Shown piece by piece: positions 1 to 5,279 of a DNA stretch of 64,000 nt. The translations under genes and the position numbers were made by a program. This DNA is from Candidatus Blochmanniella camponoti (GTDB lineage Bacteria; Pseudomonadota; Gammaproteobacteria; Enterobacterales; Enterobacteriaceae): positions 62,001 to 126,000 of the forward strand of contig NZ_CP097751.1 in the NCBI RefSeq assembly GCF_023585825.1, given 5' to 3'. Below the pieces are notes generated by a model, which worked only from the letters and a program-made list of their open reading frames with translations, did not search any database and was not told the DNA's origin. Position 1 is the stretch's first letter. The number at the start of each line of letters is the position of its first letter.

Positions 1-1572
1 TCCAGCATAAGATGATATCCATCCATTTATTTGTAGATGTTGAAAACACGCTCCTATATCTATCTGAACAGTTTTTTCAGGTTTTAATTTTAAAATATCA
101 TCTATATTAATGTTTTCACCGGATTTAGTATAAAATAGCTCCCAATAATCAGGCAAACGAAAACTTGTTCCTACACCAATATAATATGACAACAACGGAT
201 TGATATTATCCTCATAGCGTATAAACCCAGCAGGATATACTATACCATGTCGTTTATATTTAGAACAATTATTAAAATTAATTACACTATATTCCAGTCG
301 TGTCCCTCCCACAAATCTTCTGTTTGACAATGAATCCACGATCAATTCGGTAAATATACCCGTGTCTCGAGAGACAATGTCCGTTTTCCAATTAGAATTA
401 GATTCCATATGTTCTCTATGTGTATTAATTTGAACATCTGCGCCACTATGACATTTGATATTATCCCACTGAGATACAGCAATACCTCGTGCACCCCATA
501 TTAATCGATCAACATTATTATTAATATTACCACTAAACCCACAACATTTTTCAGTAGATAATTCTGTATTACGAGACACAGTGTCAGCCATAATATGATT
601 TACATAATTATGCCAAGCTTGTAATTCAATTTTATCTAATATTTTGCTGATATCTAAAGCTTCTATTTTCATTCCATAACTTTCTCTAGCAAAACACAAC
701 CCATCCATAGATCGAGCGGCATAATTTGCAGTACCATTTCCCTGTCCTAGGCTGACTTCTAGATATGTATCTGAACTCAAATTAAATGACAAAATCGCAT
801 CAGCGTTCCATTTATACCACGCAGAATGTACCTGGTCTTTATTGCCATCATGATAGTCGTCTGAACGAGAAATATTGCCTATTAATCTAATATAGCCGTA
901 TTTACTCCCCATAACACTATCTATATTTTTATCTATTTTATTATTTGCACCGATTGTTACATTACTACGCAATTGAATTTTTGATTTATCAAATCTAGGA
1001 TGATATCGTTCAAATTGCAACGTACCCGCAGATGTTACAGGACCCCATAGTACTGTTTGAGGGCCTTTAATGATATTTAAAATATCAAAAGTCTCGGGAA
1101 AAATATAAGCACTAACAGGATCCATATGAGAAAAACAAGCACCAAGTATTTCTCCGTTATCCATCAAAATACGTATTCGAGATCCAAACATTCCCCTAAA
1201 CACTGGTTCGTTATTTACTCCTCCATTACGAATAGCAGAAAATCCAGCAATACTTTTTAAATAATCAGAAACATCAATTACATACAACGACTGCAAAGTC
1301 GTTGCAGGAGAATCACTAAAAATCAATGGGGAATTTTTTGACGAAATAACAGTTATGACGTCATCATGCATTTTTCCTTGGAATAATATAGGTAGTTTTT
1401 GTACGCCACTAAATATTGATATCGAAGTATCTTTAGGTTTACTACTAACAGATACATCATTTGAATTAGCTTGAGAATTATTAACAGTAAATATGATTAA
1501 CACAAAACATATCAAAAATAATATCATATGAATTAATATTTCATTACTATAAAAAAATTTACTATATACCAT
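1..1572 (-). CDS. TonB-dependent outer-membrane receptor, OprC-type copper receptor (3' end beyond window)
   Basis: The reverse-strand frame is open from the window edge to an ATG at 1572, giving 524 residues without the C-terminal end of the barrel. The N-terminus has a hydrophobic signal-like stretch (about residues 10-35), then a plug domain and strands typical of TonB-dependent receptors. The segment around residues 140-200 (MDP, AYIFPE, IKGPQTVLWGP, AGTLQFER) closely resembles the Pseudomonas OprC copper-receptor family. Two ligand motifs known for OprC are present: CFSHM (C146, M150) and HIM (H326, M328). I infer TonB-driven import of copper ions across the outer membrane. E. coli YncD-like receptors are an alternative label, but the copper-ligand motifs favour OprC. 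It is divergent from the regulator at 2169 across about 600 bases. Confidence 0.78.
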   Translation of the reverse strand, partial: MVYSKFFYSNEILIHMILFLICFVLIIFTVNNSQANSNDVSVSSKPKDTSISIFSGVQKLPILFQGKMHDDVITVISSKNSPLIFSDSPATTLQSLYVIDVSDYLKSIAGFSAIRNGGVNNEPVFRGMFGSRIRILMDNGEILGACFSHMDPVSAYIFPETFDILNIIKGPQTVLWGPVTSAGTLQFERYHPRFDKSKIQLRSNVTIGANNKIDKNIDSVMGSKYGYIRLIGNISRSDDYHDGNKDQVHSAWYKWNADAILSFNLSSDTYLEVSLGQGNGTANYAARSMDGLCFARESYGMKIEALDISKILDKIELQAWHNYVNHIMADTVSRNTELSTEKCCGFSGNINNNVDRLIWGARGIAVSQWDNIKCHSGADVQINTHREHMESNSNWKTDIVSRDTGIFTELIVDSLSNRRFVGGTRLEYSVINFNNCSKYKRHGIVYPAGFIRYEDNINPLLSYYIGVGTSFRLPDYWELFYTKSGENINIDDILKLKPEKTVQIDIGACFQHLQINGWISSYAG

Positions 1573-2168
1573 ATGTATGCTCGTAACTATTACATTCTTT
1601 TAAAGATACTAATATCATGTATTACAATATATATTAAAAACTCAATTTCTTCTAATATAAAATCAGATAAATAGATAACATTAACAATCTCGATTAAAAT
1701 CGATCGTTTCTGACTAAATACCTAATCTTAAAATTATTTACAAATATCATAATGCTTAAAGAGAAATTGAGATCTATATAACATTGAACTTATAACATTG
1801 CACTAAACACTGAGAAAATTAAAGTACTCACTATACTATATCCTCAACTGCAGTTTAGTTAACACGTCTTATTTAATTTATCAAAAGAATCAACTGCTCA
1901 AATCAAATATCGTCTTGATATTGATTTGAGCAATACACATACTAATATGCTAGATTTTTATTAAATGTTGTTATACTATCAAAAAAAATAAATTGTAAAC
2001 GCCACAATCTAAATAACACAAATTACAATCATGTTAATGCATTTTTATGATGAAATACTTTTTATAGTATCTATATATGTTTTTTAATTAAAATATATTA
2101 TCTAAATCTTTATAAACAGCTGGCGTAAATGTTGATTTATCCATGTACAGTTCATATAGAGTAATTAC
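1573..2168. other. Divergent intergenic region between receptor and regulator
   Basis: About 600 AT-rich bases lie between the divergent receptor and regulator starts, so both promoters should be here. I could not fix a convincing promoter pair. The only strong structure is the inverted repeat at 1895-1932. Confidence 0.6.
1895..1932. promoter_or_regulatory. Inverted repeat in the receptor/regulator intergenic region
   Basis: The arms TGCTCAAATCAAATATC and GATATTGATTTGAGCA pair over 16 base pairs with one bulged A and a five-base loop (GTCTT). No T-run follows on either strand, so it is not an obvious terminator. Its central place between two divergent starts suits an operator or a mRNA leader structure. 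Function is inferred from position only. Confidence 0.4.
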
Positions 2169-2807
2169 ATGAAATATGTCATTCAATCGACTATAATATT
2201 TGACACTACAGAGTATACTCTGACATTATTAACTGATTCCAATACATCAGTAAAATTATCTAATTCTGCTGGACGGGTATTAGAAGAGCTTATTAAACGA
2301 CACAATATTGATATTTGTGCGCCAGTCACTCGAGAACACTTGTTTTCAATCGTTTGGAGAGCTTATGGACTGGAACCATCTAACGGCAACTTAAATCAAC
2401 AAATTAGTTTGATACGAAAAACTTTAACTTCTTTTGGATTAGATTCTTCATCCATTATAACTATTCCTAAGCGAGGGCTAAAGCTAAACAATCAACTGAT
2501 TATAGAAAAAATACACGAAGATCGATCATGCATATCTTCCCCTCTACATAAAACCACAGATCAAAACAATAATTTATTATCATCTTCTATTTTACTAAAT
2601 ATCAAAGCTCATATAAAATATATGATTACTCTGACGATAATGGTCGTAATATTACTCAGTATTGGTTTTGTGTACTTATACACTAAAAAAGATCATATTA
2701 AACTATATTGCTGCAAAGAAATAAACTCATGTAATATTTGCGCTTTCCATTCAGAATTGGGATTTGAATGCAATGACTGCATTATGCAGTGCACCGAAAT
2801 TACATAA
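2169..2807 (+). CDS. Membrane-anchored winged-helix regulator, ToxR/CadC-like, with Cys-rich C-terminal tail
   Basis: This 212-residue protein starts with a winged-helix DNA-binding domain of the Trans_reg_C type (about residues 8-108), as in ToxR, CadC and OmpR-class regulators. A polar linker follows, then one clear transmembrane helix (about 151-171) and a short tail. The expected topology is DNA-binding domain in the cytoplasm and tail in the periplasm. The tail of about 40 residues holds seven cysteines (181, 182, 188, 191, 201, 204, 208), including CNIC and CNDC. There is no large sensory domain as in CadC. It is divergent from the copper-type receptor, so I infer that it may sense metal or redox state and control that gene. 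I do not recognise a specific named orthologue. Confidence 0.7.
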   Translation: MKYVIQSTIIFDTTEYTLTLLTDSNTSVKLSNSAGRVLEELIKRHNIDICAPVTREHLFSIVWRAYGLEPSNGNLNQQISLIRKTLTSFGLDSSSIITIPKRGLKLNNQLIIEKIHEDRSCISSPLHKTTDQNNNLLSSSILLNIKAHIKYMITLTIMVVILLSIGFVYLYTKKDHIKLYCCKEINSCNICAFHSELGFECNDCIMQCTEIT

Positions 2808-4814: not shown

Positions 4815-5279
4815 TTATTTATTGAAGCGCTTAGAAAATTGAATAAATGCCAATAATGTTTCATTACTAACATGATGCTCAATGCCTTCTGCATCTCTTT
4901 GAGCAATTTTTTTATTGATACCTAAATCTATTAAAAAAGTTTTTACAATTTTATGTCGTATATGATTTTCATTAGCCAATTGCCTCCCTTGTTCTGTCAA
5001 CGACACTCCATGATAACGTTTATGCTTAATTAATGAAGAGGCAATCAACTTTTTTAACATTTTTGCTACTGTTGGTTGCGTTACTCCAAGTCTTAATGCT
5101 AAATCTACCTGACGTGCTTCCCCGCATTCTCGAATTAAATCTGCAATTAATTCAATATAATCATCAATAAGCTCACGTCGATGTGCTGCTCTAACCTGGA
5201 TAAATCCTTGTAAATTATCTGTTTTTTTTTTAAAACACGCTAAATTACTGGACAATACTTCTATATCATTTTTAGTCAT
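4815..5279 (-). CDS. mntR: Manganese-responsive transcriptional regulator
   Basis: This 154-residue protein is a full-length match to MntR of the DtxR family (E. coli 155 residues). An N-terminal winged helix includes [13 protein letters not shown] and the recognition segment [15 protein letters not shown] helical metal-binding and dimer domain follows with RHKIVKTFL and the histidine pair in [12 protein letters not shown]. In enterobacteria the Mn-bound dimer represses the importer mntH and activates the exporter mntP; neither gene is in this window. Retention of a metal regulator in such a reduced genome is notable, and the N-terminal and metal-ligand regions look intact. Confidence 0.92.

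Follow-up and report, generated by a model that had tools for sequence, protein, structure and literature searches.

A reduced YqeI/MarT-type regulator with a cysteine-rich tail, encoded divergently from an OprC-type copper receptor in Blochmannia

What signal would a membrane-tethered transcription factor ending in a short, cysteine-rich tail detect, and how is it related to the copper receptor gene that lies divergent to it? We address this question for a 64,000-nucleotide stretch of DNA (the window) from a single-contig genome of 0.79 Mb that belongs to Blochmannia, symbionts of carpenter ants and related ants. The original prediction for the locus was a ToxR-like one-component regulator paired with a copper receptor in what could be an undescribed copper-sensing circuit.

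The regulator gene (2169..2807, plus strand) runs from ATG to stop and encodes 212 amino acids. The N-terminal winged-helix DNA-binding domain (residues 1-112, 2169..2504) is confidently modelled. A profile of the regulator family hits residues 1-103 of the PDB entry for the DNA-binding domain of ToxR (E 2.4e-12), and the model matches the same domain by fold (Foldseek E 3.4e-8), consistent with the predicted ToxR-like one-component membrane regulator. Pfam profile PF00486 recognizes the window's protein weakly (23 bits against a cut-off of 26.2) and exceeds its cut-off for the regulator in 6 of the 14 genus genomes. A variable cytoplasmic linker (residues 113-148, 2505..2612), the least conserved part of the protein, leads into the transmembrane segment (residues ~149-172, 2613..2684; helix 138-173 in the model), the single hydrophobic helix of which spans ~149-171 and is followed by a 41-residue tail. 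Since the DNA-binding domain has to be cytoplasmic, the tail is expected to be on the periplasmic side. It comprises a conserved segment (residues 173-193, 2685..2747) with C181, C182, C188 and C191, and a variable segment (residues 194-212, 2748..2804) with the clade-specific C201, C204 and C208. The reading frame, all seven tail cysteines and both CxxC motifs (188-191 and 201-204) are therefore real features of the window's protein, as predicted. Model confidence in the tail is low (pLDDT below 50 at 174-188 and 190-212), so the modelled hairpin is tentative and we make no claim about cysteine geometry.

Such a concentration of cysteines is exceptional within the window. Across the 43 open reading frames of at least 150 amino acids in the window, 217 of 13504 residues (1.6%) are cysteine, and a 40-residue stretch with seven cysteines occurs in the regulator alone, the next best having five; the binomial probability of at least seven in 40 is 3e-6, uncorrected for scanning. 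A profile search returned 71 proteins. Together with the window's own, these fell into two groups: 37 short proteins of Blochmannia type, 12 of which are either the window's own or those of named Blochmannia, and 25 longer proteins of Sodalis/Wigglesworthia/Biostraticola type, among them P0071, a fragment of 188 aa. Another ten (P0042, P0063-P0070 and P0072) belong to neither group and are outside all counts. Among the 37 short proteins, C188 and C191 are present in all, C182 in 36 and C181 in 34, and 28 residues are invariant. Mean top-residue frequency is 0.81 for residues 173-193 and 0.80 for the winged helix, against 0.50 for residues 194-212 and 0.45 for the linker. Conservation of the tail cysteines is thus uneven: the first CxxC is found genus-wide (37/37), and the second is a feature of one clade. 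Positions 201, 204 and 208 alternate mainly between tyrosine (17, 14 and 20 of the 37) and cysteine (13, 7 and 8), possibly through one-step TAT-TGT changes.

Pooled pN/pS over the whole gene is 0.17 in a clade of five (L001 and L003-L006; L002, nearly identical to L001, was omitted) and 0.23 in a clade of three (L007-L009), indicating purifying selection. For the clade of five the tail has the lowest ratio (0.09, against 0.13 for the winged helix, 0.22 for the helix and 0.31 for the linker). In the clade of three the corresponding values are 0.24, 0.20, 0.30 and 0.20, so that the tail is not below the linker, and strong tail constraint is thus seen in one clade only. The pooled ratios bear out the idea that the tail is under purifying selection, and its cysteine codons swap between TGT and TGC yet remain cysteine. 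Relative to Sodalis sp. Psp, cysteines have been gained at 6 of 40 tail residues versus 19 of 1187 in trxB, the receptor and lolA combined (Fisher P 9e-5), a comparison that was picked after the tail had been seen and that uses three reference proteins only.

Where this tail came from is apparent from the longer proteins. The regulator can be aligned without a break to full-length proteins of Sodalis, Biostraticola and Wigglesworthia, two of which are called YqeI in their sources, and it represents the YqeI/MarT branch of ToxR-like membrane regulators in Blochmannia. The full-length relatives are 265-291 residues long and have four conserved cysteines after the helix (in 25, 25, 24 and 24 of the 25). 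The expectation that homologues would share the cysteine cluster failed for these 25 proteins, in which C188 alone of the seven Blochmannia positions is cysteine (25/25). Position 191 is tyrosine and position 182 phenylalanine, leucine or methionine in all 25, whilst position 181 is phenylalanine, tyrosine or leucine and never cysteine. The three further ancestral cysteines (25, 24 and 24 of 25) lie in a part that the Blochmannia protein does not have, and the periplasmic domain with a disulfide near its C terminus is likewise absent, the protein ending earlier. In the alignment, all that Blochmannia retains of the periplasmic domain is a short initial segment, with C188 the sole ancestral cysteine left, and new cysteines have appeared beside it at former Phe/Leu/Tyr sites to give CC-x5-C-x2-C. 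A tblastn search downstream of the regulator in the 14 Blochmannia loci found no remains of the lost C-terminal half; G013 alone aligns to the lost part, over 16-19 residues that lie inside the end of its own reading frame. This lack of decayed remains indicates that the truncation is old and settled.

In larger-genome relatives the gene directly downstream encodes a FidL-like protein (FidL_like PF15941, 126 bits), and 7 of 11 named loci have genes for a FidL-like and a GGDEF/dCache protein after the regulator; the other four are from symbionts (B. floridanus, Sodalis sp. Psp and two Wigglesworthia). The conserved cassette in the larger genomes, a YqeI-type regulator, a FidL-like protein and a dCache-GGDEF diguanylate cyclase (L041:9699-12716, L059, L061-L065), suggests that c-di-GMP signalling lay downstream of the ancestral system. 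Whole-genome searches found no FidL-like protein in any of the 14 Blochmannia, the two Wigglesworthia or the one Sodalis sp. Psp genome, and the same search found one in all three other genomes, from which we conclude that three symbiont lineages have lost the partner. With the PF15941 profile, too, the 14 genus genomes had no match, a result that proves nothing alone as the control genomes gave no match either. Among these partner-losing lineages the periplasmic domain was truncated only in Blochmannia. The regulator of Sodalis sp. Psp, for which no partner was found, has two of the four ancestral cysteines and looks like an intermediate in the reduction. In Wigglesworthia (L058, L060) the regulator is full-length with all four ancestral cysteines, and neither FidL-like nor receptor matches were obtained.

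The shortened regulator is present and intact in all 14 genus genomes. PF00486 has a single match per genome in 13 of them, always the regulator, and misses the regulator in G001. Retention is not a default in small genomes: outside the genus, 14 of the listed genomes of up to 1.4 Mb lack a match and one has it, with 67 further non-matching genomes standing beyond this listed set. Among the named organisms that carry the gene are two Wigglesworthia, Acerihabitans, Martelella alba and Biostraticola tofi.

The gene on the other side of the shared intergenic region (1..1572, minus strand, start codon at 1572) encodes a 714-residue OprC-type TonB-dependent copper receptor, its 3' part extending past the left edge of the window. 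The receptor scores 494.3 bits against TIGR01778 (cut-off 472.45), a model whose cut-off is exceeded in 7 of the 12 genus members with any match, and aligns to PDB OprC 6fok with an E value of 1.3e-134. The copper ligands of OprC are Cys143, Met147, His323 and Met325 (PMC8610252); the Blochmannia receptor keeps the equivalents of C143/M147 and H323/M325, and the CxxxM-HxM pattern is kept in all 15 regulator-adjacent receptors (12 Blochmannia, two Sodalis and Biostraticola). The neighbour was thus correctly predicted to be a genuine copper receptor, divergent and upstream, with 596 bp between the start codons. The divergent pair occurs in 12 of the 14 genus genomes, which are all 12 that have the receptor, with the genes 429-683 bp apart. 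It also occurs in the two Sodalis and Biostraticola, 1228-1517 bp apart, and on this gene order the pairing predates the genus; linkage within the genus reflects common gene order and is accordingly not independent evidence. Across the eleven named loci, three have the divergent pair, five have both genes on different contigs and two are the Wigglesworthia; in the eleventh, SoCistrobi, the contig end is too near to judge pairing. In the Sodalis-like G039 (L040:6741-8201) the regulator is intact and the receptor next to it is broken into two frames, a recent loss at the position that the intact pair has in L041.

The regulator is also found where the receptor is not. Neither the receptor nor TonB was matched in G009 (Polyrhachis) or G013 (Colobopsis), and their 19-kb stretches contain no receptor remains at E up to 10, but both retain the regulator with C182, C188, C191 and C201. 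Similarly, both Wigglesworthia searched keep the regulator and gave no receptor match. In a three-gene tree the placement of G009 and G013 reaches only 53% support and the other 12 genomes group with full support. The regulators of G009 and G013 are 54-56% identical to the window's (TrxB 62-63%), compared with 58-59% for those of G011, G001 and G003 (TrxB 74-76%), and so show no sign of faster decay relative to TrxB. That the regulator outlives the receptor implies some target or use besides it. The predicted co-occurrence of cysteine tail and receptor linkage therefore stands for 12 of 14 Blochmannia and breaks down in G009 and G013. Beyond the genus, the linkage extends to Sodalis and Biostraticola but not to either Wigglesworthia, which have no receptor match, or to the five larger genomes with the genes on different contigs.

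The 596-bp intergenic region common to both genes (1573..2168) is a candidate operator region on grounds of conservation. Of four intergenic regions aligned across nine genomes it has the highest conservation (0.35 invariant versus 0.13, 0.22 and 0.26). However, its longest invariant run is 7 bases, for one pair of genomes its identity is matched by another region (0.78 versus 0.79), and it holds two promoters, so that no operator site could be named by footprinting of 1573-2168. A second metal regulator, MntR (4815-5279, minus strand; NCBIfam 211 bits, over cut-off), is encoded 2 kb downstream; G011, G003 and G009 show no counterpart within their 19-kb stretches (L035, L037 and L038).

What the tail does has to be considered against the chemistry of its compartment. 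DsbB is present in 14 of 14 genus genomes and DsbA in 13, and thus a disulfide-forming periplasm exists. The exception is B. floridanus (G011), where no DsbA match was found alongside DsbB and where five tail cysteines are nevertheless kept, which is hard to reconcile with a role driven by DsbA alone. Haem-copper oxidase subunit I is encoded in all 14 genomes whereas a P-type ATPase was found in none of the 14 (the control matched in 14/14), implying a need for copper with no P-type copper exporter found. The reading that we favour, and hold to be somewhat more probable than its negation, is of a reduced ToxR-family regulator of YqeI/MarT type in which the tail acts as a thiol cluster that replaces the lost partner and through which oprC and other genes are controlled. 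The sequences show that the DNA-binding domain and membrane helix have been kept under selection in a genus where no FidL-like partner was found, that three of the four ancestral cysteines disappeared with the truncation, and that new cysteines were gained beside C188. The tail, expected to lie in the periplasm, would work as a thiol cluster. Its state, whether disulfides within or between subunits or binding of a thiophilic metal, could determine how active or how stable the tethered dimer is, in the lost partner's stead. The DNA-binding domain may act on the promoter region shared with the OprC receptor and, because the gene outlives the receptor, on at least one further target. From the comparative evidence the regulator probably acts on oprC among other genes, and periplasmic thiol/disulfide state is a somewhat likelier signal than copper, although copper sensing is possible.

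Three other explanations have to be weighed. A dedicated copper sensor, in which the CC-x5-C-x2-C tail binds periplasmic Cu(I) and thereby turns oprC, the divergent gene, on or off, we regard as unlikely. The adjoining receptor is a real OprC with its CxxxM and HxM ligands in 15 of 15 cases, the cells have a haem-copper oxidase but no detected P-type ATPase, and the 181-182 CC pair occurs in all 12 receptor-bearing genus genomes, the two receptor-less ones having C182 only. These 12 genomes are however a single clade, so the match between CC and receptor may be a single event. Moreover, G009 and G013, which have neither receptor nor TonB, keep the regulator and four tail cysteines, Wigglesworthia keeps a regulator with no receptor match, and ancestral full-length forms that do not have the cluster already adjoin the receptor in Sodalis and Biostraticola. 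Also rather unlikely is a scheme of stepwise cysteine gain, with 182 and 191 arising at the root of the genus, 181 in the Camponotus-type clade and 208, 201 and 204 later. After loss of the partner and most of the sensor domain, this would have produced a ~40-residue periplasmic Cu(I)/thiol switch that controls OprC copper uptake in a bacterium that has few other regulators.

Alternatively, the cysteines could be purely structural, with local disulfides holding together the stub or a constitutive dimer of an activator that senses nothing. The exchange of three ancestral cysteines for others within the same short domain, the near-universal DsbB and DsbA, and the usual presence of disulfides in ToxR-family periplasmic domains (PMC9214523) fit this idea, but a tail of 41 residues with between four and seven thiols has more than one stabilizing disulfide needs, and B. 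floridanus has its five without a DsbA match; we consider it improbable. A degenerating relic or pseudogene was rejected on the basis of the 14 intact copies and purifying selection. Although the missing FidL-like partner, the truncated domain and the variable distal tail are what would be expected of a regulator kept by chance on its way to loss, the intact genes, the whole-gene pN/pS of 0.17 and 0.23, the 28 invariant residues and the clean downstream sequence make this highly improbable.

The regulator has recognizable relatives among characterized systems. YqeI/YqeJ and MarT/FidL, defined in 2022 as co-component systems (Kinch et al., PMC9214523), share its ToxR-like winged helix, single membrane helix and cysteine-containing periplasmic domain. 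They differ in that no FidL-like gene can be detected in Blochmannia, where most of the periplasmic domain is gone and a new cysteine cluster has arisen. Because both the partner and the C-terminal disulfide are missing, the Blochmannia regulator is, as far as its sequence tells, a derived, partnerless offshoot of these systems; searching the text of PMC9214523 turned up neither endosymbionts nor Sodalis. ToxR and TcpP of Vibrio cholerae provide the best PDB sequence and fold matches to the DNA-binding domain, and titles in the reference list of PMC9214523 indicate that periplasmic thiol chemistry affects both, but the Blochmannia tail is 41 residues long with no ToxS/TcpH-like partner seen. 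The regulator itself is not new: it was named in 2006 as a membrane-linked transcription factor, Bfl390/yqeI of B. floridanus, with a winged helix, a membrane helix at 149-171, a suggested role as a membrane-signal switch and no predicted interactions (PMC1360075). The description of the circuit as undescribed thus does not extend to the regulator, but does to the cysteines, the truncation and the receptor, none of which is discussed in the accessible portion of that account. Likewise, what is available of the OprC study describes no ToxR-like neighbour and states that no mechanism is known for the down-regulation of oprC (PMC8610252). The literature searched yielded nothing on the cysteine tail or on the regulator/receptor pairing, and no paper joining Blochmannia, TonB and copper.

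Obligate insect symbionts discard most transcription factors, and the retention of this regulator throughout the Blochmannia genomes searched, and in Wigglesworthia too, marks a signal that still needs sensing. If the regulator controls the divergent receptor, it would provide a first lead on the regulation of OprC-type importers, of which PMC8610252 says that nothing is known. The tail, for its part, would show how a two-protein membrane sensor can become a tiny one-protein thiol sensor.
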